Below are positions 17,902 to 37,514 of a stretch of 64,000 nucleotides of DNA, piece by piece; position 1 is the first letter of the stretch; every line of letters starts with the position of its first letter. Source of the stretch: Rhodothermales bacterium (GTDB lineage: Bacteria > Bacteroidota > Rhodothermia > Rhodothermales > UBA10348); NCBI GenBank assembly GCA_017643395.1, contig JAEPNP010000003.1:62001-126000 (forward strand). The letters are read 5' to 3'. Position numbers and translations under genes: made by a program. The notes beneath the pieces are model-generated. The model searched no databases, was not told the origin of the DNA, and was given only the letters and a program-made list of their open reading frames with translations.

Positions 17902-20900
17902 CTACTTGAGCAGCACCATCCTGCCCGTAGCAGACTCACTCCGGGCTGCTCCCTGAGCAGTCGCCCGATACAGGTATACGGCCGACGGCAGTCGCGCGCC
18001 GTCAAACTGGATGGTATGCTGCTCGCCTGCCTGAAGGCTTTCGGACAGCAGCGCCACACGCCTTCCGGTAAGGTCAAACACCTCGATCCGAACGTCCGCC
18101 GCATAAGGCAGATCAAATACGAACTGCGTAACAGGGTTGAACGGGTTTGGATAGTTGCCGTGGAGCAGAAAGCGTTCCGGCAGCTCGGACCCGGGGTCGC
18201 TGCTCGTGGTCACCTCTCCCAGATCAATGCGCCCGTCCGGATGCACGGCCCAGATCTGTAGGCCAAAGCCAGGAGTCTGGGAAGACGCAGAGCCGGTAAG
18301 CACGTATCCAACGGTAGAGCCCGCCAGCGGGGTCTGGTCATATCGATGCGCAACGATCGGCGCACCGCTTCCATCGCGCACGACGACGTCCACCACTCCC
18401 GCCAGGAAAGCGCCCGGCACCGCTCCAGAGAAGGCCTCCACGCTGGTCCTGTCTCCGTTGATTTCAAACTCTACATCCGCGGCGTCCGCGGAGGCGTTGA
18501 CCACCCACGGCTGGATGCGCGCCGGAAAGAGCGCCTCGGCCCGCACGTCCGGCACGGCTATCAGGCGTTCGCCGATCGCGGAGACCAGCACGGTCAGGCG
18601 TTCGTCGGTCAGGGGCACGCCGACGCTGCTCTGCGCAGTGGATGCTTCGAAGGCCGAACGATCGCCGGGGTACACGGCCGCTGAGGCCGTCGCCTGCATC
18701 CGTCTAAGCTTCGCCGCCGGAAAGCCGGAAACGTCGAATTCCGTATCTCCGCCGCCGAGACGCATGTCGGCATTCACCACCTGAAGGGCTGTGTTCGTGC
18801 GCCCCTGGAGCTCGGAAAGCCCGATCGAGAACATGGACCCGGTTTGACTGAGTCCGCCGCTGAGCGAAAACGACTCAGCGGTCAAACGGCCGTCCGCAAC
18901 GGTGCCGGTGGCGGCGCGAGTTTGGGGAGTCAGCAGCCGCTCCTGACGCAGCAGCACTCCGGAGGCAGAACCATTCAGGTCCGACTCCGGAACGGAAACC
19001 GTGACGGTATAGGGCTGCGAGGCCACAAAGTTGACCGAACTCGTCACGCGCCACGTGAATGGAGCCAGATCTACCGCGCCAGTGAATCCAGGCAGCCCCA
19101 ATGCAGACTGCACCGGATCCTCCGAAAGCTCCGTTCGGAACGTGGATTGAGTCAGGAGCCCGGTCAGGCCGAGGGTTAGCGGCCGATATACCGCACCGCC
19201 CAGGTGAAAGGGGTACGAGCCGGAGAAGCCGGCCGGCAGCGTGGTCGACGCCGCCCCCCGGATGAAGCTGGTCGCTCCGGGACCGCGAGCGATTCCGCCG
19301 GGGCTGGAGGGGAGTCGGAGCGTCCGGCTCCCTGTGTCAAAGACGCCACGTTCAAGCACCACCGATCCGGTGACCGAAAGGTCGGCGCCTGAAAGCCTGA
19401 CCACGCCATCGTCCGAATCCTGACTCATGGAGAGCGCGGCCACGGCTTCGGGCCCCGCGTTCAACTCCAGTGATTGATCCGCCCCGGTAAAGAAGAGCGA
19501 CGTGGAGGAGCCAAGATCGCCGTCTACGATCAGGTCTGATCCGGCCGTCACCGATAGCCCGGAGAAGACTCCTGCCAGGTTTGCCAGTCCGCCGGATTCC
19601 AGCGCCACCGACCCGCCCACGGATGCCTCCGCTGCGAGCGTGAATGCTTCACCGCTGCTGAGCTGGGCCAGCGGTCCTGAGGTCACCATCCCGGCCCCCA
19701 GCAATTCCAGGGACCGCTCGGTTGTGAGCATGGCTCCGTTCAGGTTGAACGAGTCGTCCGCGCCGTGCAGGGAAATGGTAGCCGCCCCTACCGATCGATC
19801 CCCCGCCATGAGAATGCGAGAAGCGGCGCCGGACCCGGCTCGTACGGCAAGCGAGTCCACCGACGCTCCAGCGGGGAAGAGATCCGGAGCCAGTGTCAAG
19901 TCCCCAAACGGCGCTGACAGCAGCAGGTTGATGGGCGATGAGGTCGCGTAACCCCCACCGGTGCGCAGAACCGCTCGACTCGTCGCATCCAGCGACGCGG
20001 AGATGACGCTTCCGCTGGCGGTGATGGCTCCCCCAAAGTCTGCCGTTCCCGCCCAGACGATCAGCGCGTCCGTGATGCGGAGCGCCGTGATGTTGCGAAA
20101 CTGAATGCCCGGCGAGGCCAGCACGCTTAGCCGACGCAGTTCGCCAAACCCTGCGGTGATCTCCACGCCGGGACTGAAGGAGCCCGCAACGGCTCCACTG
20201 GCACGACCACTGATTGAACCGTCGTGCAGGTCATAGTGCACCTCGTACGCACCCAGGAACTCCGGGCGCCCCGCAAGACCGCCACGACCCTGCATTACGA
20301 TCATGGCCCCGGCACCAATCTGGAGCTGGCCGTCTGCGGCGGCCAGAAACTGTGACCCTCCGCGCCCGGCCGCCAATCTGTTGGCCACCGTAAGCGTGCG
20401 TCCGTTGTTCGGCAGCCGAAGGTTGCCCCGCAGCCGAACGTTGTCGAGGGTCACCGAGGCGCTGAGCGCGACCGTTGCGTTTCCGGCTCCGAGCACCAGT
20501 TCGCCGAAATGGTCGTCGTTGAGAGGAAAGAGCGCGGCATCACCCAGGTGGGCGGCCAGTGCGGGGAGCTGCGGTGCAGACGTGCCCACCAACCGCCCAC
20601 CAGAAGACAGAAAGACATCCGCCGTCGAGCCTTCGAGCACGATGTCGTTGAGGCCGATGTCCAGGACCCCTCGCTCGAGAGAGAATTGCTTGTTGGTGAC
20701 CACCACTTCGTGCGGACCGTTCACCGAGCGTATGCGCACCACGTCGGTGTCCTGATTTGATCGCACGCGCAGGTTGGCGGACGACACCTCCACCGAATTA
20801 CCCAACTGGATGTTGGAAGGCCCCTTGAGAATGAGGTCGCCACCCGTGCCCGCGAAATCACCGAAAAAGGCGTCCGCGTCGCCGTCCAATGCCTCGCCAT

Positions 20901-23900
20901 CCGCGTCCAGCAGGGCCGAAGCACCGTCCAGAGTAACGGAGAACCGGTCCATGAAGATGTCGCCGTCCACCACGACCAACTCGTCAGTGATCACCAGGTC
21001 CGTTGCCAGGACCACGTCATCCGATGCGGTTTCGCTTTCAGGCGCCACACGGAGGCGGGGCAGGGGAGAGGCGAGGCCGAGAGTGGCGTCGCCGGTCAGG
21101 ACGACAAAACCGCCGTCTATGATCTCTGGAGGGGTGGTGCCGGCGCCGAGTTGCCAGATGCTTGCCGCATCGGTCGTGAGCGATGCCCCCGCGCGGGCGT
21201 ACAGCGCGTGATCGGTTCCGATGGTCCAGTTGGATGCCGTGCCGGTCAACGAGGCGCCGGCGGCGAGCTCCACACGGTCAGCGATCGCGATTGCGGCGTC
21301 GGTTGCGACAACTGATTCTTCAATCAGCAGGCCGCCGGGACGGCCGCTGGATCCCAGCGTGACCGAGCCCCCGGTGATGGTAAGGTTCGACACGTGCGCC
21401 AGCTCCAGCAGCGTACCCGCCCCATCCTCAAGCACCAGCCGTTCCACGCGGCCGTCGGCGTCACACTGCACAGATGTCGCTCCGACCAGACGAATTTCGC
21501 CGTTGCCTTCGGTGCGCCCTCCGAGGAAATGCGCGTGTGCTCCCGTGGACCGCAGGGATGCTCCCGACTCCAGACGGACCAGGGCCCCGGTGGTCACCGA
21601 TAGTGCTCCGGAGATCTCGATGGGAGCACCAAGGCTGAGCCCGAACACGGCCGGGTCGTTGGCCGCGTCGCTCAGGTCCACCGAAAGGTCGCGGATGGGG
21701 CCCCAGGTCAACTCGGTTCCGGGTGTGTACAGGCTGGTGACGTCGCCCGACCATGAGAGGTCGAACGGCGTACCGGCGGCATTGACGGTGCCCCCCGCAA
21801 TGCGCACGCCGTCCGGAGTCCCATTACCCGGCGCTTCGTCGGACACGTTCAACGCCAATCCAGCCGCATTGCCGACAAACTGCAGTGCGCCGCCATTCAG
21901 GTTAATGCCGCCGGTTTCCAGGTTCAGCGTGCCAGCCAGGTTCAGGGCTGGGCTCTCCAATACCACATCGCGCGACTCGTCGCCCATGGACAGTGTCAGG
22001 TCCCCATAAACGCCATTTCCTCGCAGTCCGAAATCGAGCGCGGCCTGGTCCGTCACCGAAATGCTTCCGGCATACGTGCCTGTAACCGACATCCAGGCAC
22101 CGGCGTGCTGAATCCGGGCGCTGCCGAGTTCAAGCACGCCCGAGATGTCAGCTGTGCCCAGAAGCCGGAGCACGGAATCTGAGTTTATGCTCACCTGTGC
22201 TCCGCGAGCGATGAGGTTGGCCCCCACAACCTGCGGCGGGAGCACCAGCGCTTGCCCTGCCCCTGACAGAACCAACGTGCCGGATTCCATGGACAAAGAA
22301 GCGTCGGCCAGGTCGGCTGCGCCCGTCAGATCGAGCGACCCGAGCACCGTGACCTCACCATGGAGTCTCGTTATGCCTTGAACCGTCAGCGCGGTGCCGG
22401 CCGGAATGGTCAGGCGACCGGTTGCCTCCTGGTTCAGCAATCCGGACACCGATACGTCCTCAGTAAACTCCAGCGCGCCCCGCACAATCGATGGGGGAAG
22501 CGTGGACAGGCCTGATATCCGGGAGGTCCCGCTCCAGACCAGGTCGCCAGCTCCGAGCCAGTCCAGCGTGCCGCCCTCAGACAGAAGATTCGCGTACAGC
22601 GTCAGCGTGGATTCCAGCGTCAGGGAGCTCGTGGCCGGAAGCGTCAGCGTTTCGATCAGTTCGAGCGGCTGCGTTAGCGTCACGCTTGCGCCGGTCAGCG
22701 AAAGGGACTCGGCCATAATGCCGCCGGACAGCCCGAGCCTGCGGGTCGCGCCAGGTGATGCGACCAGCACCGCGTCCGGAATCTGCCACACGGCCCCATC
22801 GCCAAGGAGATCACCGCCGAAACGGATAACGGTCCCGCCCGAGCCTACCAGGCGGCCGGATACGAGGGTAATGTGCGATGCGGCATCCAGCGAAGCGGCC
22901 GACTCGAGCTGCAGGGTGCCGCCACTGACCAGCAAATCGCCCGTGCGCAGTTCGGTGCCGACCACATGCTCCCCGGCCGTGACGCTGGTTTGGCCGGACA
23001 CCGTGAGGCCCTCCGGGGCATCGATGCCTGCACCGGCCAGTTCGAGTGAAGGCCAGGAAGCAAGGCCGCTGACGGATTGCCGGAGCCCTCCGTCGAGGCG
23101 AAGCAGGGTGAATCCGGTGGCGGACCCTGAACCCAGCAGGTGGCCGCCGACGAGGAGGGTGTCGGTGCCGGACAGGGTGCCGTCGACTCGGACCAATCCG
23201 CGCACATCAAGGGCGGTTGTGGAAGCATCGAGGGTGACCGCGGCGTCGACAACAAGCGAGTCGGTGATGGCGAGTTGGGAGCCGGTCAGCGAGGCGTCTC
23301 CCGTAACGAGGAGCGCTGTGGCTTCTGCCGCGTCGAGCCGTGAGCCGGCGCGCAGTTCGGTAGTGCTGGTCGCTCCGCCCCCCGACAGCGAGACCCCATC
23401 GCCCAGAACCAGCGGTGCCGACGCAGAGGAGATTGTACCGCTGTTCAGGTACGTGTCCGAGGCGTCGGCCAGGGTCAGTCCATTGTGGAGCAGTGCGCCG
23501 GTGTTGTTGAGCGCCGTCGGCAGGTCGGTGCCCGCAAAGTGCACGCTGGACAGCCGTGCGACCTGTGCGTTGGACAGTGCGCCGTCAAACTGAAGCGGCT
23601 GCGATCCGCCGGGGCCAAACAGGAGCGAGCCCGTAAGATTGACGATGTCCGCTTTCCATGGCTGCCCGGATGCGATGTCGCGGATCGTCAGGTCACCCGC
23701 GTTTTCGATGCGACTGGTTGCGGGCGCGGCGCCTTCGCCCAGTCTCAGGGCACCGATAAAAAGTGTACCGCCCCGGTGGAGGATCGCGGCGGGCGGAGGG
23801 AAGGCGCCTGCGATGTGTACCTCCGGCATGTTCGCCAGCCCGGCGAAGTCGGCGGTGCTCCGAATGGGGCTGTCGGAGTTCGTGATGGTCACCCGGTCCT

Positions 23901-24678
23901 GGAACAGCACCTCTCCCGAGCGCACAAACTCGATGGACCCGCGTGGCAGATCGATGGACTCGGCGACAATCACATCGCCCGAGAAGAGAAGTCTGTGATC
24001 ACTCAGGTCTGTGGGCAGGCGATACTGCTGGCCGCCGCCGAACTCGACGACCCGTGGGGCCGGCGTGTACTGGATGCTGCCTGTAAGCGTGTTGCCCTGG
24101 AAGCGCACGCGTGCCGAATCGGGAGCGACCTTGGAGGAGTTGGCGGGATTCACGCGACCCGGAACGCCGACGGACGCGCCCAGCGTGACGGTCAGTCCGG
24201 TGAAGTCGACGATGGACGCATCGAAGTAGACCGAGTGCAGCGCGTTCTCCAGTTCGGGTGCGGTCGGATTGTCCGTGTTCGCGACGCCTGCGCCGAAGAC
24301 AAGCGCGCTTGCGCTGCCGGGCTCAAAGTCCAGCGTGCCCGAGCCGGAGGCAAAGCGCACAAACTTCTCGGAGAAGCGGACCTCTGTCGCTCCAGCAAAA
24401 GCGTCGAGCTGGAAGGTGACTGACTTGCCCGGGATGTCCAGGCTGATTCCGTCCGCATCGTCCCCCACGAAATACTCGCCGGCCGAAACGCACACGCGGC
24501 CGCCAGCGGGTGCGTTGCGATAGGCCAGCTCAAACGAGCGGAGGGGAGCCACCCGGGATCCGGGGTTGCCGTCGTCCCCGTCCGACGCGTTTACGAAAAT
24601 GTCACACGCCTGGCCCGAGGCCGCTGAGGGCACGCAAAGGAGAAAGAAAACGGTTGCCTGGCAGAGGCGACGGAGCAT
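17902..24678 (-). CDS. giant T9SS-secreted beta-helix exoprotein (2258 aa)
   Basis: The N-terminus is a clear signal peptide (MLRRLCQATVFFLLCVPSA). The first mature domain (about 25-110; DIFVNASDGDDGNPGS, then FELAYRNAPAGGRVCVSAG) is the opening found in DUF1565/pectate-lyase-like right-handed beta-helix proteins. Most of the remaining length is a loose repeat of short strands (LDLTGAADLADASLSME-type rungs) like an autotransporter passenger. About 2060-2140 looks like one or two beta domains. Residues about 2164-2258 form a T9SS type A sorting domain with LLHGNYPNPFNPVTQF. It is probably an adhesin or surface-layer protein; no catalytic motif was seen. It is divergent from the 2443-aa paralogue, with a 409-bp shared regulatory region between. 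Confidence 0.88.
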   Translation of the reverse strand: MLRRLCQATVFFLLCVPSAASGQACDIFVNASDGDDGNPGSRVAPLRSFELAYRNAPAGGRVCVSAGEYFVGDDADGISLDIPGKSVTFQLDAFAGATEVRFSEKFVRFASGSGTLDFEPGSASALVFGAGVANTDNPTAPELENALHSVYFDASIVDFTGLTVTLGASVGVPGRVNPANSSKVAPDSARVRFQGNTLTGSIQYTPAPRVVEFGGGQQYRLPTDLSDHRLLFSGDVIVAESIDLPRGSIEFVRSGEVLFQDRVTITNSDSPIRSTADFAGLANMPEVHIAGAFPPPAAILHRGGTLFIGALRLGEGAAPATSRIENAGDLTIRDIASGQPWKADIVNLTGSLLFGPGGSQPLQFDGALSNAQVARLSSVHFAGTDLPTALNNTGALLHNGLTLADASDTYLNSGTISSASAPLVLGDGVSLSGGGATSTTELRAGSRLDAAEATALLVTGDASLTGSQLAITDSLVVDAAVTLDASTTALDVRGLVRVDGTLSGTDTLLVGGHLLGSGSATGFTLLRLDGGLRQSVSGLASWPSLELAGAGIDAPEGLTVSGQTSVTAGEHVVGTELRTGDLLVSGGTLQLESAASLDAASHITLVSGRLVGSGGTVIRFGGDLLGDGAVWQIPDAVLVASPGATRRLGLSGGIMAESLSLTGASVTLTQPLELIETLTLPATSSLTLESTLTLYANLLSEGGTLDWLGAGDLVWSGTSRISGLSTLPPSIVRGALEFTEDVSVSGLLNQEATGRLTIPAGTALTVQGITRLHGEVTVLGSLDLTGAADLADASLSMESGTLVLSGAGQALVLPPQVVGANLIARGAQVSINSDSVLRLLGTADISGVLELGSARIQHAGAWMSVTGTYAGSISVTDQAALDFGLRGNGVYGDLTLSMGDESRDVVLESPALNLAGTLNLETGGINLNGGALQFVGNAAGLALNVSDEAPGNGTPDGVRIAGGTVNAAGTPFDLSWSGDVTSLYTPGTELTWGPIRDLSVDLSDAANDPAVFGLSLGAPIEISGALSVTTGALVRLESGASLRSTGAHAHFLGGRTEGNGEIRLVGATSVQCDADGRVERLVLEDGAGTLLELAHVSNLTITGGSVTLGSSGRPGGLLIEESVVATDAAIAIADRVELAAGASLTGTASNWTIGTDHALYARAGASLTTDAASIWQLGAGTTPPEIIDGGFVVLTGDATLGLASPLPRLRVAPESETASDDVVLATDLVITDELVVVDGDIFMDRFSVTLDGASALLDADGEALDGDADAFFGDFAGTGGDLILKGPSNIQLGNSVEVSSANLRVRSNQDTDVVRIRSVNGPHEVVVTNKQFSLERGVLDIGLNDIVLEGSTADVFLSSGGRLVGTSAPQLPALAAHLGDAALFPLNDDHFGELVLGAGNATVALSASVTLDNVRLRGNLRLPNNGRTLTVANRLAAGRGGSQFLAAADGQLQIGAGAMIVMQGRGGLAGRPEFLGAYEVHYDLHDGSISGRASGAVAGSFSPGVEITAGFGELRRLSVLASPGIQFRNITALRITDALIVWAGTADFGGAITASGSVISASLDATSRAVLRTGGGYATSSPINLLLSAPFGDLTLAPDLFPAGASVDSLAVRAGSGAASRILMAGDRSVGAATISLHGADDSFNLNGAMLTTERSLELLGAGMVTSGPLAQLSSGEAFTLAAEASVGGSVALESGGLANLAGVFSGLSVTAGSDLIVDGDLGSSTSLFFTGADQSLELNAGPEAVAALSMSQDSDDGVVRLSGADLSVTGSVVLERGVFDTGSRTLRLPSSPGGIARGPGATSFIRGAASTTLPAGFSGSYPFHLGGAVYRPLTLGLTGLLTQSTFRTELSEDPVQSALGLPGFTGAVDLAPFTWRVTSSVNFVASQPYTVTVSVPESDLNGSASGVLLRQERLLTPQTRAATGTVADGRLTAESFSLSGGLSQTGSMFSIGLSELQGRTNTALQVVNADMRLGGGDTEFDVSGFPAAKLRRMQATASAAVYPGDRSAFEASTAQSSVGVPLTDERLTVLVSAIGERLIAVPDVRAEALFPARIQPWVVNASADAADVEFEINGDRTSVEAFSGAVPGAFLAGVVDVVVRDGSGAPIVAHRYDQTPLAGSTVGYVLTGSASSQTPGFGLQIWAVHPDGRIDLGEVTTSSDPGSELPERFLLHGNYPNPFNPVTQFVFDLPYAADVRIEVFDLTGRRVALLSESLQAGEQHTIQFDGARLPSAVYLYRATAQGAARSESATGRMVLLK

Positions 24679-25087: not shown

Positions 25088-28000
25088 ATGGACAGCAAGA
25101 AATTGCTACAGCTTCTTGGTTCCTTGGTGATGGTGTTCGTGCTCGCGGCGTTCACTGGACCCCAGGACTCGTCGGCGCAGTCGACCTGGTACGTCAACTC
25201 GACGGAAGGGGACGACAACAACGACGGTAGCCAGATTAACAACGCCGGTGCAGGCGTCGGTCCCTTCGCGACCATCGACAAAGGCATCAGCGAAGCCAGC
25301 GACGGCGATACGATCGTCATCCTCGCCGGCACCTATAACGAGGACATCGATCCCGAGGCATCCAATGCCGGTATTGAGAACCTCACTTTCCAGGTTCAGG
25401 CCTCCGGGGGCAATACGATTGTCTTCATCGAAGACCTGAACATTGACGAAGATCAGAGCCTCTCCGGCGGTAACGGGAAGTTTCGGGTCACGGGTGGCGA
25501 TGTCCGCCTGACCGACGGCGCCCTTACCGTAGCCTCCGGCATCCTTGAGCTGGCCGCAGGTGTTTCGGTTGAAGTCAATGACGGTTCCGTTTCGGGTAAC
25601 AACTTTGTTTACCTCGGAGACGGTTCCGTTCGCTATGACCCGACGAACACCGGTGGCAGTCCTGCGACGATCACCACTGGTCTGGAACTGCCTTCCGATG
25701 GTGCCCTCGGCGGGGGTACGCTCTCGACCGACGCAGCGTTCGACAGCGGATCGCTGACGGTTGACCAGGCGATTACCGCAGGAGCCGTCGACCTGAACGG
25801 TGATGCAGCGGTAACCTTCCAGCAGTCCGTCGGCGGCACCGCCATCGACATCGACGGCGCAGGCGATGTGGCGTTCAACTCCACCGTGAGTGGTGGGGAC
25901 TTCGACGTCACCGGGGCATCGGATGTAACGGTCACGGGCAACATGACCCTGTCCGCCGACCTGTCCATCGAAGGCACGGCCGATGCCGGTAGCTTCACGG
26001 CAAACGGCACCGTTACTGCCCTCTCGATTACGATCGACGGCGACGACGACGTGGACTTCAACGGCGCGGTTTCCGTCACCGGCGGCAACTTCGACCACGA
26101 TGGATCCGGCGACGTCACCACGGGAGACGTCGACCTGAACGGAAATAACCTCGTTCAGACAGATGGCACGTTCACCATGTCGAGCACGCTGACCGTTGGC
26201 GATATCGACGCTGATGGGGTCCGTATCTCCAACGCGGCCGGAGCGTCCATGACGATTGACAACATCGTCCTGGAAAGCATCGACAATACGGGTGAGGACG
26301 GAACGGCACTCGATACCGACGAGTCCGTCTACGCGACGATTGACAACAACGGTACGTTCGTAATCAACGGCTCGATCACGGAGCAGACAGTGGTCGACGA
26401 TGACGACGCCGACGAAGATGTCACGCACGCCCTCGCTATTGACAACGCGGACGACGCACTGTTCACAATCAACGCCACCACGGGCTTCAGTGGTGATGTG
26501 ACCAACGCGGCCTCGAACTTCAACAACAACACGGGCGATGCCATCCAGGATGAGGGTATCGCAGTAGGCGCGAGCAACACGGTCACCGCTTCCTTCGCCG
26601 GCGCATTCACCGACCTCGGCTACTGGGGCGGCGGAACGCTGGCCATTACGGCCGGCACGGCTGCGATCGACGACCTGGAAACGGTCGGCGGACTCACTCT
26701 GTCTGCTGCACGTGCCATCACTACCACTGACCTGGTGGCGACCGGCAACGTTGATCTCCAGGCCGACGGCCCCGTAACACACGCTACCGTTCTGGATGTC
26801 GGTGGAACCCTGACGGTTTCCGGCGACGACATCACGATCAACGACGGCGCAGGCACGCACGAACTGGACGGCCTCACCGTCACCGGCGACGACTTCACCT
26901 ACGGTGATGGCGACGACACGATCAACGTGGACGGCAATGCCACAATCTCGGACGCCACGATTGACGGCGCTCTTGATGTGGACAGTGGTAACTTCACCAC
27001 CGACGGCGGAACGGTCACCGGTGCGCTCGGCGTTGAGGGAACGGCCACCTTCTCTGGTGCCGTCACCCTGGATTCGACCTTCGACGTCGATGGCGCAGCC
27101 ACGATCAACGCGGGTAGCACGGTTTCGGCCGCTGCATTCGCCGCATCCGACATCGGCGGAGCCTTCACGGTTAACGGCACCTTCGACGGAACCGGTACAG
27201 GCACCAGTCTGACGGTAGGAAGCGCGACCATCGCGATTCCGGCCGGCATCCTGGATCTGGACGACGCGGACTTCACGCTTGGCGGTGACTTCACGGGTGG
27301 TACGCTCACCGACGCCGGGGATGTGACAATCAACATTCCTTCGGGCGGGGCGACCTTCTCGCCGGGTCCGAACACCACGGTGGACGGCTTCACGGCTGAC
27401 GGCTCCGGCCGCACCGTTACCGTTTCGGAAGGCTTCACCGTCAGCGACAACGGCGTAGACGTCAATAACGACGCGACACTCGCCTTGGGCGACAACACCG
27501 TCACCATCGGTGCCGGTGGCCTGACGCTGGAGGACGAGGCCCAGATTACCACCTCGTCCACCGCAGGCGCTGTTGCGTTTAACGGCGGTGCTCAGGACAT
27601 CACTGTCACGGGTGCTCCGACTACGGATCCGTCGATTTCAAACATCCGCGTAAACGGAACCGCCACGGTTACCGTGCGGAATGACATCGACATCACCGGC
27701 GACCTGGCACTGAACAACGGAACGTTCGTGGTCGACACCGGCGACACGGTCAACATGACCGGTTCGTCGGCTACGATCACGCGCAACCCGTCTACCGGAA
27801 CCCTGACCGTTAACGGTACGCTCGCCGGTTCCTGGGATGTGGTTTACTTCGGCGCGGCAGGAACGACCTCCGGGGAGTTCTCTGACGGTCAGACCAAGTC
27901 CGCGACGGTCAACATGACTTCCGGCGCGACGCTGACCATTGACGACGCTGCGGACCTGTCTGGCAACTTCACCGTCACTGACGGAATCGTCGTCATCGAC

Positions 28001-31000
28001 GCCAACGTCGGCGTTGCGGGCAACTTCTCCCTCAACGCGGCAGCTGATGGCTTCACTGTGAACGGCGGCGACACGTTCGACGTGGACGGAACCTCCACCT
28101 TCAGTGACCCGGCCACCATCACCGGAGCCTGGACGCAGGCTGGTGCCTTCACAGTCGCCAGCGGCGTCGTGGTGTCTGGCGCTGGTAGCTTCACCGTTGA
28201 CGGTGATGCGACCTCCTCGCTCGAAGGCTCTCTGACGGTTGCGACGACCTTCGACTCCAATCACACTGTGAACGGCACGACCGATGACGATGCCGGCGAC
28301 GCTGTGTTTGGAGCGGTAACGGTTGACAACGACGCAGTGGTCTCGCTCAACGAAATCCAGGAGACCGCAGCGGTCACCGTCACCGACGGTACGCTCAACC
28401 TGGATATGGCGGACGACGGCACGAACAACCCGGAAATCGACGGCGCAATCACCGTCACCGAAGGCGCCCTGACGCTCTCCGGCGATGATGAGATTCGCGA
28501 CATCGATTCCATCGACATCGACGAGGGTGCATCATTGACGCTGAATGGTGTCGATGCAGACTCGGACGGCACGGTCGACGTTGGAGACGGTGGCGCCGGA
28601 GCGGCCACTCTTGATCTGGGCGGCCGCACGCTTGAAGTCGGCGGAAACTTCGAGGCCGATGCAGACGCTTCGCTGGGTACTACGGGTACGGTCAACGTGG
28701 ACGGCGGTGGCGACATCGACGTCAACGGGAACACGATTCCCAACCTGACCCTGACCGGCGTGGACGAGCTGCTGTCGAACGCCACCGTTTCCGGTTTGCT
28801 GAACGTTGACGACGCGCTGGACCTCGGCGGATTCACGCTGACGCTTTCCGGCGATGCCCAGTTCGATGCAGACTTCACCAACGGTACGTTCGCCACGACA
28901 GGAACGACCCTGACGCTCGAGTCGGATACCGACGTCGACAACTTCACGGTCAACTCCTCGTCCACTACGACGATTGTAACCGACGACACCACTGCGCCGA
29001 TCACGAACCGCACGTTCACGGTCAACGGTGACTTCACTATGGAGGCAGGTTCGCTTGCAATCGGTGATGAGACCCTTGACATCGCAGGTGGTGACTTTGA
29101 CTACAACGTCGCTACAGGCGGCGCCATCACGATGGGCGACGGCGAGGTGCACTTCAGCGCGGCTACCGCCTTCGACTCCGATGACGTCAACGTCTCGCTG
29201 AAGAACGTCCAGGTGGACGGTCTCATCGACATGACGGTGGATCCGGGCAACGGACTGACCATCACCGGTACTGCGAACCTGGATGTGTCTCCGTCGGTCA
29301 CTACGGACGATGCCAACGCGGCCACGACCAACTCGACCGTGACCTTCGGTAACGGATCGACGATTATCGTCTCCGCAACAGGCGTGCTTGCTCTGTTCGA
29401 CGACGCCCCGACCCTGGGAACAGGAATGAAGGTGGAGTACGACGGTGGAGCAGCCACTACGGCCGGAAATGAACTTCCGTCTGCCGTGGCGACCTTCGAG
29501 ACGGACAACACCGACTTCGCCTTCCTCGACGGAGTCAGCCTTACGGCCGACGCCATCATCCTTGACGGTGGCATCGACATCGATCCGTTCGATGACTCGG
29601 ATCAGACCTTCACTCTGACGAGTGGCGGTACGATCACCTACGAGAACGATGCAGATGTCGAGGCTGGGGATTCCTTCACCCTTGCCGGTGACTGGAATGT
29701 GGTCTTCAACGGCCTCACCCCGCTTACCGACAACGAGTGGCCCAACGCGTATGCAGCTCCATTGACGATGGATGTGAATAGCGCGCTGACCATGCACGAA
29801 GCCCGCACGACGGTCGACTTGGCTGTTGACGCTGCATTGACTGTCGCGGGTGGTGGCTCACTTACGGTCACCGGCGACCTCTCCATTGAGGATACCGGCT
29901 CGTTCGTGACGAGTGCTACAGAGCTGATCATCATGGCCGGCTCGGCTGCTCAGTCCATCACCGTTGCTGCGGGAGGCACCACGCCTGGCGCGCTCGGGAT
30001 CAACAACGCCGCCGGCGTTACCATCGATTCCGACCTCGACATGGAAGGTGGTACGCTTGTGCTGACCGATGGCCCGCTGATCACCGGCACCAACACGGTG
30101 ACACTTGATCACGGTGGCACCGGCGCCCAGGGCTACACCCGTACGGACGGTGTTATCTTCGGCAACGTCCAGAAGGGCATCGAAACGAGCGGCACGAACC
30201 CGAACCGCGTTGAGTTTCCTCTCGGTGATGCAGCAGGCAACTACCGCCCGTTCGCAATCACCTTCAACGACCCGGCCAACGACATTGGTGACCTGAATGG
30301 CGGCGCCGACGACATCCAGCTGACAGTAGGCTACGTGGCCTCTTCACCTGGTGGCTCGAACGGCTTGCCGATCTCCACCACCGATTCGCAGGGCAACGCG
30401 CTCTCGATCGGCCGCTACCCGGATTTCCACTGGAATATTGAGTCCGCTCCGACGGTATCGCCGTCAGTGGACTACGACGTGGAATTCCAGGCCGAAGGCT
30501 ACTCCGCCTTCGACCAGGAGGATGTCGAGCGCATGCGCGCAATTCGCCGGCAGGACGGCGCGACAACCAACTTCTGGATTGCAGCTGCCCCGACGGCTGG
30601 CGACAACGACAACTTCGCGGTGTCGTCTACTGAGCCGGTAGCAGTGGCCAGAAATGCAGTTGGCGCAGTCAACTCCAACGGAGTGCTCTTCACGTTCGGC
30701 CTCGAGCAGAACATGGGGGCAACCGACCCGGCCGCACTCACGCTGAATGCTGGCAACAGTGAAACCGTGGACCTCACCACCGTCTTCTTCGGCGGTTCGG
30801 AGAGCTACACGTACGCTGTGACCAACAACAACAGCGGTGTAGTGACCGGTGCGGCAGCCGGTGACATTCTCACGGTGACAGGCGTTGCCGCGGGAAGTGG
30901 CACCATCACGGTTGTTGCTACGGATGATTTCGGCACCACTGCCACGGCTACGGTGACGGCCACGGTTAATGCTGCGCTCTCCAGTTCAGCGTTGACCAAC

Positions 31001-32419
31001 CTCGACCCGGTCAGCGTTGGCGCCGCCGACGCTACCGTCGACGGTTCGACGGCAATCGCTGGCGGTACGACTCCGTACACCTACACGGTTGCGAGTGACG
31101 ACACGGCAGTTGCGACGGCGACTGTTGATGCCGCCACCGGCGTGATCACGGTGACGTTTGTCGGTCAGGGTACTGCCACCATCACGCTCACGGCGACCGA
31201 TGCCGAGGGCGATGCGGTGACCAGCACCTTTACCGTCACGGTCAACCCGGCAGCCTCTGCTGGTGGCACGCTGACTGACCAGGTGGTAACCAACGGAAAC
31301 ACCGTAGACCAGGATGTCTCCGGTGAGTTTGCCGGCGGCACGGGTGGCTTCACCTACACCGCTGCTTCGAGCGACGATGCCATCGCCACGGCGGCTGCAT
31401 CCGGCTCGACGGTGACGACGACCGGTGTTCAGCCTTACGTGCTGACTGCTGGCTCCGTGACGGCTGACGCCGGCCCGGCGACCATCACGGTCACGGCTAC
31501 CGATGCCTTGGGCAGCGCAGTGTCTTCGACGTACGATGTCACCGTCAACCCGGTGCTCGGTAACGTCGACGGCTCCGGTGGTGCCAGCCCGGCATCTGCC
31601 AGCCTGGCGCTTGATGCCTTCCTGGGTCTCGCGACCCTGACGGCCAAGCAGACGACTGCAGCTGACTACAACACCGATGCGAGTGTCACGCCGTTCGATG
31701 CGGCTCTGATCTTCGACGCATGGCTGAACCCGACCCCGGGCGCAGCTTCGAAGAAAGAGTTCGCCGCGAACCCGGCCTCTGACGTCGCCTTCGGCGAGGT
31801 AGCCATGCAGGTCACCAAGGTCACGATTCCTGTGACGCTCACCGGCGACAATGCCGCTGCCGTGTCCTTCAACTTCGAAACGCTGATCAACACCGAGCTC
31901 GCCACGGTGACTGGTGTGACCGGCGCAGTCGAGGGATGGACCGTCAAGCACATGATCGGTGAGGACGGAACCCTCCGCATCGCAGGCTTCGGCCTCGAGG
32001 CCATCCCGAGCGACGGCGTTGTGGCGAACATCAGCATCGAGCTGACGAACGCGGGCAACGAGTTCGCTCTGAAGGGACAGGGTGCCGTCAACAACAACCC
32101 GGCAACGGAGCTCGAAGGCATCGACGTAGTCGAACTGCCCGAGGACTTCGCGCTTCTCGGCAACTACCCGAACCCGTTCAACCCGAGCACGAACATCTCC
32201 TTCGACCTGCCGGCATCCGCCGAGGTCACCGTTGAGGTGTACGACATGCTGGGTCGTCGCGTGATGGTGCTGCCGGTTCAGACGGTCCAGGCCGGCGCCA
32301 AGCGTTCCATTCAGCTGAACGCTTCGCAGCTTGCCTCTGGATCGTACTTCTACCGGGTCATTGCACAGATGGAGAGCAAGACGCAGGTCGACAACGGCCG
32401 CATGCTGCTCATCAAATAG
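25088..32419 (+). CDS. giant acidic T9SS exoprotein with beta-helix, Ig-like, dockerin-like and cohesin-like parts (2443 aa)
   Basis: Signal peptide about 1-31 (ends SSAQ). Residues about 32-110 are the DUF1565-like beta-helix opening (TWYVNSTEGDDNNDGS, then SDGDTIVILAGTYNED). About 110-1780 is a very long Asp/Thr/Gly-rich beta repeat (GNFTVTDGIVVIDAN-type rungs). Three Ig-like modules follow (about 1875-2155). Residues about 2158-2217 resemble a type I dockerin: loop 1 is NVDGSGGASPAS (degenerate) and loop 2 DYNTDASVTPFD has calcium ligands at 1, 3, 5 and 12. Then comes a cohesin-like beta domain (about 2225-2345) and a T9SS sorting domain (LLGNYPNPFNPSTNI). It is probably a structural or adhesive surface protein. 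AAGGAG lies 11 nt before the ATG. Confidence 0.88.
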   Translation: MDSKKLLQLLGSLVMVFVLAAFTGPQDSSAQSTWYVNSTEGDDNNDGSQINNAGAGVGPFATIDKGISEASDGDTIVILAGTYNEDIDPEASNAGIENLTFQVQASGGNTIVFIEDLNIDEDQSLSGGNGKFRVTGGDVRLTDGALTVASGILELAAGVSVEVNDGSVSGNNFVYLGDGSVRYDPTNTGGSPATITTGLELPSDGALGGGTLSTDAAFDSGSLTVDQAITAGAVDLNGDAAVTFQQSVGGTAIDIDGAGDVAFNSTVSGGDFDVTGASDVTVTGNMTLSADLSIEGTADAGSFTANGTVTALSITIDGDDDVDFNGAVSVTGGNFDHDGSGDVTTGDVDLNGNNLVQTDGTFTMSSTLTVGDIDADGVRISNAAGASMTIDNIVLESIDNTGEDGTALDTDESVYATIDNNGTFVINGSITEQTVVDDDDADEDVTHALAIDNADDALFTINATTGFSGDVTNAASNFNNNTGDAIQDEGIAVGASNTVTASFAGAFTDLGYWGGGTLAITAGTAAIDDLETVGGLTLSAARAITTTDLVATGNVDLQADGPVTHATVLDVGGTLTVSGDDITINDGAGTHELDGLTVTGDDFTYGDGDDTINVDGNATISDATIDGALDVDSGNFTTDGGTVTGALGVEGTATFSGAVTLDSTFDVDGAATINAGSTVSAAAFAASDIGGAFTVNGTFDGTGTGTSLTVGSATIAIPAGILDLDDADFTLGGDFTGGTLTDAGDVTINIPSGGATFSPGPNTTVDGFTADGSGRTVTVSEGFTVSDNGVDVNNDATLALGDNTVTIGAGGLTLEDEAQITTSSTAGAVAFNGGAQDITVTGAPTTDPSISNIRVNGTATVTVRNDIDITGDLALNNGTFVVDTGDTVNMTGSSATITRNPSTGTLTVNGTLAGSWDVVYFGAAGTTSGEFSDGQTKSATVNMTSGATLTIDDAADLSGNFTVTDGIVVIDANVGVAGNFSLNAAADGFTVNGGDTFDVDGTSTFSDPATITGAWTQAGAFTVASGVVVSGAGSFTVDGDATSSLEGSLTVATTFDSNHTVNGTTDDDAGDAVFGAVTVDNDAVVSLNEIQETAAVTVTDGTLNLDMADDGTNNPEIDGAITVTEGALTLSGDDEIRDIDSIDIDEGASLTLNGVDADSDGTVDVGDGGAGAATLDLGGRTLEVGGNFEADADASLGTTGTVNVDGGGDIDVNGNTIPNLTLTGVDELLSNATVSGLLNVDDALDLGGFTLTLSGDAQFDADFTNGTFATTGTTLTLESDTDVDNFTVNSSSTTTIVTDDTTAPITNRTFTVNGDFTMEAGSLAIGDETLDIAGGDFDYNVATGGAITMGDGEVHFSAATAFDSDDVNVSLKNVQVDGLIDMTVDPGNGLTITGTANLDVSPSVTTDDANAATTNSTVTFGNGSTIIVSATGVLALFDDAPTLGTGMKVEYDGGAATTAGNELPSAVATFETDNTDFAFLDGVSLTADAIILDGGIDIDPFDDSDQTFTLTSGGTITYENDADVEAGDSFTLAGDWNVVFNGLTPLTDNEWPNAYAAPLTMDVNSALTMHEARTTVDLAVDAALTVAGGGSLTVTGDLSIEDTGSFVTSATELIIMAGSAAQSITVAAGGTTPGALGINNAAGVTIDSDLDMEGGTLVLTDGPLITGTNTVTLDHGGTGAQGYTRTDGVIFGNVQKGIETSGTNPNRVEFPLGDAAGNYRPFAITFNDPANDIGDLNGGADDIQLTVGYVASSPGGSNGLPISTTDSQGNALSIGRYPDFHWNIESAPTVSPSVDYDVEFQAEGYSAFDQEDVERMRAIRRQDGATTNFWIAAAPTAGDNDNFAVSSTEPVAVARNAVGAVNSNGVLFTFGLEQNMGATDPAALTLNAGNSETVDLTTVFFGGSESYTYAVTNNNSGVVTGAAAGDILTVTGVAAGSGTITVVATDDFGTTATATVTATVNAALSSSALTNLDPVSVGAADATVDGSTAIAGGTTPYTYTVASDDTAVATATVDAATGVITVTFVGQGTATITLTATDAEGDAVTSTFTVTVNPAASAGGTLTDQVVTNGNTVDQDVSGEFAGGTGGFTYTAASSDDAIATAAASGSTVTTTGVQPYVLTAGSVTADAGPATITVTATDALGSAVSSTYDVTVNPVLGNVDGSGGASPASASLALDAFLGLATLTAKQTTAADYNTDASVTPFDAALIFDAWLNPTPGAASKKEFAANPASDVAFGEVAMQVTKVTIPVTLTGDNAAAVSFNFETLINTELATVTGVTGAVEGWTVKHMIGEDGTLRIAGFGLEAIPSDGVVANISIELTNAGNEFALKGQGAVNNNPATELEGIDVVELPEDFALLGNYPNPFNPSTNISFDLPASAEVTVEVYDMLGRRVMVLPVQTVQAGAKRSIQLNASQLASGSYFYRVIAQMESKTQVDNGRMLLIK

Positions 32420-32432
32420 TATTGACAGCCGA

Positions 32433-32460
32433 GGGGAGGGGGCCTCAGGGCTCCCTCCCC
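32433..32460 (+). terminator. GC-rich hairpin after the 2443-aa gene
   Basis: GGGGAGGG (32433-32440) pairs with CCCTCCCC (32453-32460) across a 12-nt loop, 13 nt after the stop codon. There is no T-run, so it may attenuate rather than end transcription, or protect the upstream mRNA 3' end. Confidence 0.45.
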
Positions 32461-32509
32461 GAGGTGTCGATCCCATCTGGCAACACACCCAAGAAGAGCG
32501 ATATATCCC

Positions 32510-34729
32510 ATGCGAAAGGTTCTCTCAAACTGGCTGCGTTCCGCCGCCCTTGCCATCGCGCTCGTCGCGATGGGCGCCGATGTCTCGCTGGCACAGGTCA
32601 CTGTGGCAGTCAACGACATCTCTGGGCGCCCCGGTGAGTCGGCAGTCGTAGCTGTGGACCTGAGCGGCGTAGAGGGTGGTGCAGCCATTCAGTCTTACCA
32701 GCTGACGGTTGGTAACACGAACGGCAACGTTGCACTTGCTAGCGTGAACTACACTGGCGCTCTCGCCAGTGCCTTCACGAACAACAACAACGGTACTTTT
32801 CCGTCCACGGCGGACGTCACCATCGGTGGCTTCTCGACTGGCACGGACATTACCACCTCGGGCACGCTGCTCTTTCTCACATTTAATTTCGTCGCCGCCG
32901 GCTCAGACACGATTACGCTGACCGGAACGACGTTCAACGCAGGCAACCCCGCCGTCGCTGCAGGCTCCGACCTCTCCGCCGCCGTGGTTTCCTCTAATCG
33001 TTTCCTCAACGCGTCGAACCACAACGTGCTGACGACCGCTCCTGATTTCGTTATCGAGATCACGGCAGAGGACGCCTTCACGGCTGGTGACAACGTCATC
33101 TCCTTCAACTTCGATCTGGATTATGATCCCGCAGTCGTCACCCTCGGTGCCGTTTCTGCTGGCGATCTCAACGCTTCCGGCTGGACGTTTAACTCCAGTG
33201 GTGGAGGTGCTACCGGCTCGATCACGGTTGGAGCGTTCAACTCCGGTGGCGGCGCCCTCAACGGCGCAGGTGTCATTGCCCGCATCGCTGCTACGGCAGC
33301 AGCGGCTGGCACAAGCACCCTGGATCTGAACAGCGTTGTCTTCAATGCCGGCACGCCGGTGTACGCTGATCGCGACGGCTCTGTCACGGTCACCTTCGTG
33401 GCTGCAAACGTGCCGCCGGTTGCGAGCGATGCCAGTGCATCGACGAACAACTTCGCCGACGTGGACGTCACGCTGAGCGCAACAGACCCGGACAGCAGTC
33501 CTGCTGCCCTTACCTACAGCGTCACTCAGCCGGCCAACGGCTCCGTGACCCTGGCGGGCAACGTGGCGACCTACACGCCGGACTTCCCGTTCACGGGCGA
33601 CGACACGTTCACCTTTACCGCCAACGATGGTGAGGATGATTCGAATGTCGCAACAGTGACCGTCACCTCGACGGCAACCGCCGAGGCCGTGCTGTCCGGC
33701 GTCAATGAAGTACCCTTCGTCGCTTCTCCCGGTTCGGGCGTGGTGAACGTGACCATCGCCAACGGCGTGGCCACGATGACGGGTAACTTTGCCGGTCTTG
33801 CCGGCGATTTCGCTGCGTCGCACGTGCACAACGCACCTGTCGGGCAGAACGGCGGTGTGGTGCAAGACCTCACGGCCGGGGTGTCTGTCGACGCTGGAAA
33901 CCGTAGCGGCACGTTCAACACGGTTGTGGACCTGTCAACCAACGCGGCGCTCGCCGACGCCATCTGGAACAGCGGCGCGTACGTTAATGTGCACTCCGCG
34001 GCCTATGGCCCGGGTGAACTGCGTGGTCAGATCCTGCCGGCCCCGAACTCGGCGCCGAACGGAACGGCCGTCCGTGCCCCGTCGGACGTGAAAATCATCG
34101 GCAACAGTGGTGATCGCCTCTACTCGGTGTCGTGGCTGCCGGCCAACGACCCGAACGGTGACACGGTCAACTACCTGTACCAGATGTCGATGAACGCGAG
34201 CTTCACGGACATCGTATCGTTTGACGACTTCTCCGACGGCAACGGTTTCCGTGTCACGGTGGGCGAAGCGGCCGAACTGTACGACTTCGTGACCGACGCC
34301 GACCCCGGCATGGTCAACGTAGGCGGCACGGTCACGCTGTATCACCGCGTGATCACGACGGACGGCTCTCGCTGGACTGCGGGTACCTCTGCCGAGATTA
34401 CGCTGGAGCGCGGCACGGTGACGTCCAATGAGGGCGAAGCTGACCTGCCGACCGAGTTCGCGCTGAAGGGCAACTACCCGAACCCCTTCAATCCGAGCAC
34501 GAGCATCCAGTTTGACCTGCCTGAGGCAGCCGACGTGACGGTGACCATCACCGACATGTTGGGCCGCCAGGTGCTGAACGTCCCGACGCAGGCAATGTCT
34601 GCCGGGGCCGACCGCGCCATTCAGGTCCAGGCCGGATCGCTGGCCTCAGGTCTCTACCTCTACCGCGTGGTGGCTCGGTCCGCCCAGGCCACCTACGCGA
34701 AAGTTGGCACGATGACGCTTATCAAATAA
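32510..34729 (+). CDS. T9SS exoprotein with two cohesin-like domains and a CHRD domain (739 aa)
   Basis: Signal peptide about 1-28 (MRKVLSNWLRSAALAIALVA). Two cohesin-like beta sandwiches follow: about 30-165 (VTVAVNDISGRPGESAVVAV, then a FNAGNPAVAA strand) and about 178-300 (VIEITAEDAFTAGDNVISFN). Next are a cadherin/tandem-95-like module (about 302-390; DDTFTFTANDGEDDSNVATV), a CHRD domain (about 394-510; LSGVNEVPFVASPGSG and ASHVHNAPVGQNGG), a fibronectin-III-like module (about 520-645), and a T9SS type A sorting domain with LKGNYPNPFNPSTSIQF. It is predicted to be surface-exposed. It lies 90 bp after the 2443-aa gene on the same strand and may bind that protein's dockerin-like module; this is inference. 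Confidence 0.85.
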   Translation: MRKVLSNWLRSAALAIALVAMGADVSLAQVTVAVNDISGRPGESAVVAVDLSGVEGGAAIQSYQLTVGNTNGNVALASVNYTGALASAFTNNNNGTFPSTADVTIGGFSTGTDITTSGTLLFLTFNFVAAGSDTITLTGTTFNAGNPAVAAGSDLSAAVVSSNRFLNASNHNVLTTAPDFVIEITAEDAFTAGDNVISFNFDLDYDPAVVTLGAVSAGDLNASGWTFNSSGGGATGSITVGAFNSGGGALNGAGVIARIAATAAAAGTSTLDLNSVVFNAGTPVYADRDGSVTVTFVAANVPPVASDASASTNNFADVDVTLSATDPDSSPAALTYSVTQPANGSVTLAGNVATYTPDFPFTGDDTFTFTANDGEDDSNVATVTVTSTATAEAVLSGVNEVPFVASPGSGVVNVTIANGVATMTGNFAGLAGDFAASHVHNAPVGQNGGVVQDLTAGVSVDAGNRSGTFNTVVDLSTNAALADAIWNSGAYVNVHSAAYGPGELRGQILPAPNSAPNGTAVRAPSDVKIIGNSGDRLYSVSWLPANDPNGDTVNYLYQMSMNASFTDIVSFDDFSDGNGFRVTVGEAAELYDFVTDADPGMVNVGGTVTLYHRVITTDGSRWTAGTSAEITLERGTVTSNEGEADLPTEFALKGNYPNPFNPSTSIQFDLPEAADVTVTITDMLGRQVLNVPTQAMSAGADRAIQVQAGSLASGLYLYRVVARSAQATYAKVGTMTLIK

Positions 34730-34752
34730 GCGGCTTCGTCCAGACCTTCCGG

Positions 34753-34783
34753 AGCCCCGGTTCGCCAACGGCGGGCCGGGGCT
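34753..34783 (+). terminator. GC-rich hairpin after the 739-aa gene
   Basis: AGCCCCGG (34753-34760) pairs perfectly with CCGGGGCT (34776-34783) with a 15-nt loop, 23 nt after the stop. The following bases are TCTGGTATATATG, without a clear T-run, so terminator strength is uncertain. Confidence 0.5.
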
Positions 34784-34913
34784 TCTGGTATATATGCGTG
34801 GCCCATATTGGGTAGTGGTCGCGCGTTCTGAGTACTAGGAACAAGAGCGGACCACGAACGATTGCACCCGCGTCGCCCCATCCCGCTCGATTCATTTCAA
34901 CACTCGCCGGCCT

Positions 34914-37514
34914 ATGCGCTTGCTACGGGGTTCCTCGTCTTTCCTCCGCTGCCTTGCAGCCGCTCTCTTCCTCTCTATTGCCGGCGTTTCCGGGAGCCAT
35001 GCCCAGGTAACGGTGACCGTTGCCGACGTTTCAACGAGTGTTGGCACCGTAGTCGAAGTGCCGGTTGTTCTGTCCGGCGTCGAGGCGGGCGCAGGCGTCA
35101 ACTCGTTCCAGTTGACCATCACCAGCTCGGATCCCGCGGTGGTTCCAGATCGAGCCGATGCAGGCTCCCCGAACTTCCACAACAGCAGTGGAACGCTGGT
35201 GCAAAACTTTACGGTGTCGTCCAATGATGCGAACGGGCGAATCGGCGGATTCACCTCGTCCAACAACGCCTTTACCGGCAGTGGCACGCTGATTCTGGTT
35301 AGACTGAAGGCCACCGCGGCGGTCTCGTCGACGATCACCCTGACGGATTTCAGACTGAACAGCGGCAATCCGGCCCATACACCCGACGTGCCGTCGTTCA
35401 CGTTTGACGCCACCGGCAGTGGTGGCGGCGGCTCCAACAACGCACCAGTTGCCAGCAACGTCAACGTCACTACCTCTCAGGACACGCCGGTCACGGTCAC
35501 CTTCTCCGCGACGGACGCAGACGCCGATAACCTCACGTACAGCGTAGTCGCCACCCCGGGAAACGGCACGCTCGGCACGGTCTCCGGCAACACCGTGCAG
35601 TACACACCGGGAAGTGGTTTCACCGGCACCGACTCGTTCACCTACAAGGCGAACGACGGTACCGAGGACTCGAACACGGCTACGGTGTCAATCGTCGTCG
35701 GCTCGACCGGCGGGGGCAACAACTCGCCCATCGCGAATGACGACTCGTACACAGTAGGCGAAGACGCCGCCTTGAGCGTGCCCGCTCCCGGCGTGCTCAC
35801 CAACGACACGGACGCCGACGGAAACTCGCTGACTGCCTCCCTGGAAACCAGTCCGGACAACGGGTCGGTGTCGCTGGCTTCCAACGGCTCGTTCGCATAC
35901 GTGCCCGACGCCGATTTCTCCGGGACGGACACCTTTACCTACGTGGCCAACGACGGCACGATCAACTCCAACACGGGCACCGTCACCATCACCGTGACGG
36001 CGGTCAACGACGCTCCAGTCGCCCAGAATCAGTCCGTGACCACGGAATCGAATCAGGCGGTCACCATCACCCTGGTGGCTACGGACGCAGAGAGCGACCC
36101 GCTAACCTATACCATAACCGCGACGCCGCTCAAAGGGAGCATCAACCAGAGCGGGAACGTGGTGGTCTACACGCCGAACAACGGCGAGTCAGGAGGGGAC
36201 AGTTTTGCCTTCAAAGCGAACGATGGCCAGGAGGACTCGAACAACGCGACCGTAACGATCACCATCGGCTCGCTCAACACGGCCCCGACCGCCACCGACG
36301 ACAGCTATGACGTCGACGAAGACGACTTTCTCGGCGTGCCGGCGCCGGGCGTGCTGGCGAACGACTCGGATCCAAACGGCGACAACCTGACGGCTTCCCT
36401 GGTATCCGGCACCAGCAACGGTGACATCAGTCTCCAGGCGGACGGCAGCTTCCTGTACACGCCCGATGCGGACTTCAACGGCACCGACACGTTCGTCTAC
36501 GAAGCCTCGGACGGGTCTTTGGCCGATCAGGGCACGGTGACCATCACGGTAAACCCAACCGGCACGGCCCGCCTCCAGGTGATCCATAACGCGCCCGACG
36601 CCCAGGTTGACCCGGCGGATGTCTACCTCAACGGTGAGCTGTTTCTGCTCAACGCTCCGTACCACACGGCCTCGCCCTTTGTGAGTCGGGCCGACGGCAC
36701 GCTGGACGTTGTGATGACACCCAACGGCACCGGCATGGGCGGCGCGGTGGCAACGTTTCAGACTACGCTGGATGAGAACGGCACCTACGTCATCATCCTT
36801 GGCGGAAGCACCCAGAGCAGCTATGCCCTGAACAGCATTCCCAACGCCAAGGAGTCCACCAGTAACGACCGGTTTGAGGCGTTCTTTTTCCAGGGCGGCT
36901 CTGACCTGCCGACGATCGACATCGTCAACCAGTCTGACGACCTCGACAATCCGGGGGAAGTGACAGTACTGGCAGGCGCCACGTTCGGAGACTTTACGCC
37001 CTATCTGCCGAATACGCCGAACTCCTACAACTTCGCCCTGCGCACGTCTGGAGGATCTACGATCGACGTATTCCGGCTTGCCCTCACAGACGCTGGAGCT
37101 ACCTATTCCGTAGTCGTCGGCGGCCTGCTGAATTCGCCAGCCTACCCGATTTCCATGACGGCCTTCGATGCTGCCGGCAATGCCAAGCTCGGCAACGTCG
37201 TCACCTCCATCGAGCCGATCGACGAACTCGCGCCGAAGACCTTCCTGCTTCGCGGCAACTACCCCAATCCGTTCAATCCGAATACAAACATCCAGTTTGA
37301 CCTTCCGGAAGCGGCCGAAGTTGCTGTGCGTGTGACGGACCTCCTCGGACGCGAAATGCTGTCGATTCCTGCGCAGCAATTCTCCGCGGGCACCAACCTG
37401 TTTATTCCGGTTGATGCGTCAGAGTTGGCCTCCGGTATCTACATCTACCGCGTAGAAGCGCGCACCGTGCGGACCACGCATGTGGCCACAGGCACGATGA
37501 CGCTTATCAAATAG
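34914..37514 (+). CDS. T9SS exoprotein with cohesin-like, tandem-95/cadherin-like and DUF4397 domains (866 aa)
   Basis: Signal peptide about 1-31 (ends GSHAQ). A cohesin-like domain spans about 32-165 (VTVTVADVSTSVGTVVEVPV). Four tandem Ig/cadherin-like modules follow (about 180-550), each with an NxAPVA-type opening and DxFTYxANDG-type ending; two include the tandem-95 signature (DDSYTVGEDAALSVPAPGVL and DDSYDVDEDDFLGVPAPGVL). A DUF4397 domain (about 552-760; LQVIHNAPDAQVDPADVYLN) precedes the T9SS sorting domain (LRGNYPNPFNPNTNIQF). It resembles adhesion or matrix proteins. Its stop is only 5 nt before the UbiA-like gene. Confidence 0.86.
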   Translation: MRLLRGSSSFLRCLAAALFLSIAGVSGSHAQVTVTVADVSTSVGTVVEVPVVLSGVEAGAGVNSFQLTITSSDPAVVPDRADAGSPNFHNSSGTLVQNFTVSSNDANGRIGGFTSSNNAFTGSGTLILVRLKATAAVSSTITLTDFRLNSGNPAHTPDVPSFTFDATGSGGGGSNNAPVASNVNVTTSQDTPVTVTFSATDADADNLTYSVVATPGNGTLGTVSGNTVQYTPGSGFTGTDSFTYKANDGTEDSNTATVSIVVGSTGGGNNSPIANDDSYTVGEDAALSVPAPGVLTNDTDADGNSLTASLETSPDNGSVSLASNGSFAYVPDADFSGTDTFTYVANDGTINSNTGTVTITVTAVNDAPVAQNQSVTTESNQAVTITLVATDAESDPLTYTITATPLKGSINQSGNVVVYTPNNGESGGDSFAFKANDGQEDSNNATVTITIGSLNTAPTATDDSYDVDEDDFLGVPAPGVLANDSDPNGDNLTASLVSGTSNGDISLQADGSFLYTPDADFNGTDTFVYEASDGSLADQGTVTITVNPTGTARLQVIHNAPDAQVDPADVYLNGELFLLNAPYHTASPFVSRADGTLDVVMTPNGTGMGGAVATFQTTLDENGTYVIILGGSTQSSYALNSIPNAKESTSNDRFEAFFFQGGSDLPTIDIVNQSDDLDNPGEVTVLAGATFGDFTPYLPNTPNSYNFALRTSGGSTIDVFRLALTDAGATYSVVVGGLLNSPAYPISMTAFDAAGNAKLGNVVTSIEPIDELAPKTFLLRGNYPNPFNPNTNIQFDLPEAAEVAVRVTDLLGREMLSIPAQQFSAGTNLFIPVDASELASGIYIYRVEARTVRTTHVATGTMTLIK

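Follow-up and report, generated by a model that had tools for sequence, protein, structure and literature searches.

A conserved dockerin and cohesin gene pair that may join T9SS-exported surface proteins in Rhodothermales

Introduction

What might three consecutive genes for presumed surface proteins, one carrying a dockerin-like segment and the next two opening with cohesin-like domains, build together? Cohesins and dockerins are plug-and-socket domains known from cellulosomes, and such pairs are best known from Firmicutes. The genes in question lie in a window of 64,000 nucleotides (the whole stretch analysed here) on contig 3 of a 4.5 Mb genome from an uncultured member of the Rhodothermales, whose close relatives are Rhodothermales and Bacteroidota MAGs. 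An earlier note on this DNA had proposed that the three products form a cohesin-dockerin assembly on the cell surface, reached by way of the T9SS. Here, we ask which parts of this proposal stand, taking in turn the export route, the identity of the modules, the conservation of the genes and the predicted contacts between their products.

Results

The open reading frames are consecutive on the + strand, as are all features given below unless stated otherwise, and encode proteins of 2443, 739 and 866 aa (P1, 25088–32419; P2, 32510–34729; P3, 34914–37514), which agrees with the sizes and strand noted before. P1, with homologues in nine genomes of the family, runs from a signal peptide through long beta-helix-like repeats and Ig-like repeats to a dockerin, a cohesin-like domain and a T9SS tail. 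In P2, two cohesins are followed by a Big_9 (bacterial Ig) domain (33407–33667; Pfam), a CHRD domain (33683–34033; PF07452, 63.6 bits) and a T9SS tail. P3 combines one cohesin with four Big_9/cadherin-like domains, a DUF4397 domain (36567–36923) and again a T9SS tail; in an order relative, a polycohesin scaffoldin also has DUF4397 in front of its T9SS tail. P1 and P2 share a reading frame.

How would these proteins reach the surface? Each ends in a T9SS sorting domain (P1, type A, 32165–32419, PF18962 at 42.2 bits and TIGR04183; P2, 34475–34729; P3, 37260–37514; stop codons included), and all three contain NYPNPFNP and match Por_Secre_tail/TIGR04183 above cut-off, as the earlier reading of these tails had led us to expect. 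Signal peptides are apparent by eye in P1, P2 and P3, and another part of the genome contains a gene for the translocon protein SprA (SprA_N, E 8.8e-87 by profile search). With signal peptide, C-terminal TIGR04183/PF18962 domain and translocon all in place, the three products are predicted T9SS type A cargo.

Among the window's other genes, those for UbiA, GWxTD, class II D/K/N-type tRNA synthetase and phosphomannomutase-like proteins offer no clue to function. A divergent gene on the − strand (17902–24678), head-to-head with P1, encodes a 2258-aa T9SS repeat protein with a P1-like start, VNASDGDDGNPGS, in which no dockerin was detected.

A type I dockerin is built from a pair of 22-residue repeats, and each repeat contains a calcium loop (D/N at positions 1, 3 and 5; D at 12). 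In P1, the segment spanning residues 2158–2215 (31559–31732) carries two such loops, which had been described as a dockerin-like pair. This holds for the second, DYNTDASVTPFD (31664–31699), whose D, N, D and D at positions 1, 3, 5 and 12 are canonical and as previously read, but not for the first, NVDGSGGASPAS (31562–31597), which is degenerate, with N, D and S at 1, 3 and 5 and Ser instead of Asp at 12, so that the pair is half canonical. According to our alignments, Asp12 of loop 1 is missing throughout the P1 family, and several order relatives show no such defect in either loop.

Profile comparisons nevertheless place the segment, by sequence homology, among the dockerins. When a profile of the 62-residue segments of eight family members was compared with the PDB, the first six matches were solved dockerins (best E-values, 3.5e-5 for 8x39 and 0.005 for 4uyp), and with order relatives added, solved dockerins were matched at E 1e-14 to 1e-10; the profile search that the earlier note had called for thus came out in favour of a dockerin. 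Pfam Dockerin_1 (PF00404) scores the window copy at 12.7–13.9 bits, under the curated cut-off of 22.9, and its homologues in order and phylum relatives lie mostly above it, for example at 24–46 bits. Among eight full-length P1 homologues, mean pairwise identity is 73% in the T9SS tail, 63% in the dockerin, 43% in the domain behind it and 30% in the long repeats, so that only the tail is better conserved than the dockerin; conservation within the family is strong in loop 2 and in the FDAALIF helix. AlphaFold places three helices where they are expected, at a pLDDT of only about 28–42 with alignments of 7–10 sequences.

Elsewhere in the window genome, four weak Dockerin_1 matches (G000 C5:129, C1:431, C1:523 and C1:2030) were recorded, none of which reappeared at E 0.001 with an order-wide dockerin profile. 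A P1 paralogue is encoded on contig 1 of the same genome (L073:9991–16920, − strand); it contains a dockerin, a cohesin-like domain and a T9SS tail, and no adjoining cohesin gene was found.

The N-termini of P2 and P3 and the domain directly behind the P1 dockerin are, on profile and fold evidence, homologous to cohesins. The cohesin count proposed before, two for P2 and one for P3, was borne out. P2 cohesin 1 (32594–32986) is recognised by the family cohesin profile and by PDB cohesin matches; P2 cohesin 2 (33026–33391) scores 29.5 bits with PF00963, above the cut-off of 24.1; and the P3 cohesin (35004–35390) scores 21.0 bits, below that cut-off, and 70.3 bits with the family cohesin profile. 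These PF00963 scores come from separate scoring, hmmscan of the whole P2 and P3 proteins not having listed cohesins. Searched against the PDB, a profile of the two P2 domains matched 13 sequences, every one of them a cohesin.

The domain directly behind the P1 dockerin (31775–32131) had been overlooked before. The post-dockerin half of the P1 profile matches cohesins in the PDB, and Foldseek finds nearly all strong matches of the modelled domain to be cohesins, the best being cohesin-like modules of Clostridium perfringens (2jh2, TMt 0.67). In a linked P1–P2 chain modelled with AlphaFold, the cohesins reached pLDDT values of mostly 67–89, and single-domain Foldseek matches of the model include 2xdh (TMt 0.74), 6kge (0.73) and chain A of 4uyq (0.71), so the structure prediction once suggested for these domains yields cohesin folds; the top-ranked multi-domain matches, with TM-scores near 0.15, are meaningless.

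Is the arrangement of the genes conserved? Every one of the ten family genomes that carry P1 has a P2 homologue about 0.8–0.9 kb downstream from the dockerin, and most of the ten continue with P3-like cohesin genes. In four other families of the order, a same-strand cohesin gene comes about 0.95–1.26 kb (up to 1.3) after the giant's dockerin, and the order of dockerin gene and cohesin gene is kept in most order relatives. At the class and phylum level, the pair was present in 14 of 14 loci examined; the downstream partner has one to three cohesins there, and is T9SS-tailed wherever its end lay in the stretch and was recognisable. The N-terminal parts of the giants vary, being of a beta-helix or repeat type like P1 (L109, L112, L113) or a subtilase (L110).

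The two modules also keep company within genomes: among 78 genomes of the order, 23 have both, three have dockerins only, three cohesins only and 49 neither (Fisher, 1.7e-13), an association that owes something to chains in which both modules reside. Dockerin/cohesin co-variation over 24 pairs, examined with a partial Mantel test, gave a weak signal, hardly above the control (0.20, p 0.017, versus 0.15, p 0.035). Since the two genes stand side by side across the phylum, the pair probably represents a real, little-described means of joining cell-surface proteins.

Two variants of the locus deserve mention. In two order genomes (L110 in G036, L115 in G038), the dockerin giant opens with a subtilase-type N-terminus (by Pfam, Peptidase_S8 in the former; a subtilase-like start in the latter), with a cohesin-dockerin-cohesin-T9SS architecture. 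In two other relatives, a small open frame of 170–184 codons with a single cohesin sits between the P2 and P3 homologues (L063:13140–13691; L064:13254–13763).

To look for an interface, AlphaFold was given a linked chain from the P1 dockerin through P2 cohesin 2, with two in-frame stops read as Ser; it returned a pTM of 0.38 and, with alignments of 7–10 sequences, resolved neither the dockerin nor a supported interface. Likewise, the dockerin-cohesin dyad of P1 showed no confident packing, at a dockerin pLDDT of 30–36. Alignment depth was limited because only the window sequences and six related loci were used in these runs.

What do the same modules do in the wider order? Two genomes of another family (G033 and G045) have 10 and 11 dockerins, together with T9SS-tailed proteins of 4 and 6 cohesins; one scanned scaffoldin of these genomes contains DUF4397, as P3 does. 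Fifteen of their proteins have a C-terminal dockerin, a signal-peptide-like start, no T9SS tail and no cohesin in cis, the dockerin occupying the usual place of the T9SS tail, and several of the fifteen carry PL14 lyase, DUF5060/apiosidase-like, F5/8C, PA14, PKD or beta-helix domains. All proteins of these genomes with an extra domain after the dockerin retain a T9SS-type tail (in L082, the variant TFPNPFSR). The modules seem, in these relatives, to fix proteins that act on polysaccharides to scaffoldins anchored by the T9SS. The earlier remark that no glycosidase is present stands for the window and does not extend to its order relatives, where dockerins of this family are attached to polysaccharide lyases and to proteins resembling glycosidases.

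Discussion

Taken as modules, these are known cohesin and dockerin families in a noncellulosomal arrangement. We consider it reasonably likely that a cohesin-dockerin interaction of this noncellulosomal kind links P1, P2 and P3 at the surface after their export by the T9SS, and on the whole we expect P1 to dock onto P2 or P3 in trans on the cell surface. In the calcium-dependent docking that we propose, the P1 dockerin, whose loop 2 probably carries the calcium, would bind a cohesin of P2 and perhaps that of P3. A surface protein with a very long beta-helix would in this way be connected to proteins that have cadherin-like, CHRD or DUF4397 domains. The cohesin behind the dockerin could offer a further docking site or act as a spacer before the T9SS tail. 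The likely product would be a surface scaffold or adhesive layer, although the matrix or adhesion role suggested earlier is still conjecture. Of the assembly originally envisaged, the module identities and the T9SS routing are upheld; the docking itself draws indirect support from the conservation of the pair, the co-occurrence in genomes, and the dockerin-only enzymes and T9SS-tailed cohesin arrays of relatives. Against an assembly speaks that P1 and its one dockerin paralogue have T9SS tails of their own, so docking is unnecessary for their anchoring.

Might the P1 dockerin instead find its partner in P1? It could bind the adjacent cohesin-like domain, either of the same chain, forming a latch that depends on calcium and lies ahead of the T9SS tail, or of the next P1 molecule in a head-to-tail polymer, leaving the cohesins of P2 and P3 to other partners. 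This would fit the maintenance of the dockerin-cohesin dyad in a single chain across the phylum (33 of 148 sampled genomes, 24 of 83 genera) and the order relatives that have cohesin, dockerin and cohesin in one protein. However, the neighbouring cohesin gene was kept in every one of the 14 distant loci, and the modelled dyad did not pack confidently. Moreover, the fifteen C-terminal dockerins of G033 and G045 lack a cohesin in their own chain and, if active at all, can only work in trans, a logic that supports docking in trans for P1 too. We thus regard pairing within or between P1 chains as rather improbable.

Slightly less probable still is that the modules have lost their mutual binding and persist only as structural spacers or relics in T9SS repeat proteins. 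The degenerate loop 1 and the sub-threshold Pfam score of the window's dockerin could be taken as signs of such decay, and cohesin-like folds also serve as plain adhesin domains (9ifr is among the Foldseek matches). Relics would not be expected to look like this dockerin, however, which exceeds every part of P1 but the T9SS tail in conservation, loop 2 and the FDAALIF helix included, nor does the phylum-wide retention of the gene pair suit them.

That P2 and P3 are small scaffoldins gathering dockerin-bearing enzymes is very unlikely, and already disfavoured for the window genome: polycohesin T9SS proteins alongside dockerin-bearing PL14 lyase, apiosidase-like and beta-helix proteins in G033 and G045 lend the idea some appeal, but a cellulosome, defined by a multi-cohesin scaffoldin and several dockerin-bearing enzymes, is not what this genome encodes, its two dockerins at E 0.001 (order-wide profile) both residing in T9SS-tailed giants, and a Pfam scan of P1 returning no enzyme domain.

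How does the proposed docking between P1 and its neighbours compare with known systems? The clostridial cellulosome uses the same two module families by profile (type I cohesin-dockerin; 4uyp/4uyq, 5nrm, 2ccl), but is anchored by SLH domains or sortase rather than the T9SS, and our profile searches of the window genome found neither a dockerin-bearing enzyme nor a multi-cohesin array. Cohesin-like modules of C. perfringens NagJ and GH33 (2jh2, 2w1n, 2vo8) are the closest folds to the P1 post-dockerin domain, but sit on secreted glycosidases of a Gram-positive. For Archaeoglobus fulgidus, we know of no conserved gene pair of a giant and its partner. Its noncellulosomal pair (2xdh cohesin; used in PMC9705933) shares with ours a cohesin and a dockerin outside a cellulosome, as well as the 2xdh fold matched by our models, but is archaeal and has no T9SS link. 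In Candidatus Stygibacter (Cloacimonadota; PMC8542988), predicted dockerin-bearing secreted proteins and a large cohesin scaffoldin whose C-terminal domain is of the T9SS type follow the same logic as in G033 and G045; that organism, however, belongs to another phylum and its predicted degradation complex has tandem cohesins and CBMs, whereas in the window a single dockerin giant stands beside cohesin proteins with T9SS tails, with no enzymes among them.

Cohesins have been mentioned for a Rhodothermales MAG in a metagenome paper (PMC8547425), and the consulted part of a 2026 mucinolysome survey (PMC12997984) describes the presence of dockerins together with cohesins in Bacteroidetes MAGs as surprising and as requiring further work; within that part, these genomes are not analysed further, and neither the gene pair nor a T9SS link is described. 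In the open-access text searched, we found no description of a conserved dockerin/cohesin gene pair, which is not proof of novelty. The present locus contributes a conserved pair of defined genes whose export route is likewise defined. If the docking is real, it would provide T9SS bacteria with a general way to assemble surface proteins, by which some relatives would mount degradative enzymes on their surface, and new binding pairs for protein engineering.

More tentatively, and with less confidence than we place in the docking, one may imagine an ancient two-gene unit, a dockerin-cohesin giant and its cohesin partner, that builds surface layers via the T9SS across Bacteroidota sensu lato. Some Rhodothermales could have derived cellulosome-like complexes from it, the dockerin standing in for the T9SS tail, so that scaffoldins with T9SS tails would, through docking, bring tail-less enzymes to the surface or keep them there.

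As a separate observation, loci L068–L070, L075 and L077–L094 of G045, G033 and G054 are candidate T9SS-anchored cellulosome-like systems, with scaffoldins of 4–6 cohesins and a T9SS tail. A conserved CFPxxxxC-like tail with two cysteines, absent from the window's P1 family, follows many of the dockerins at L077–L094.
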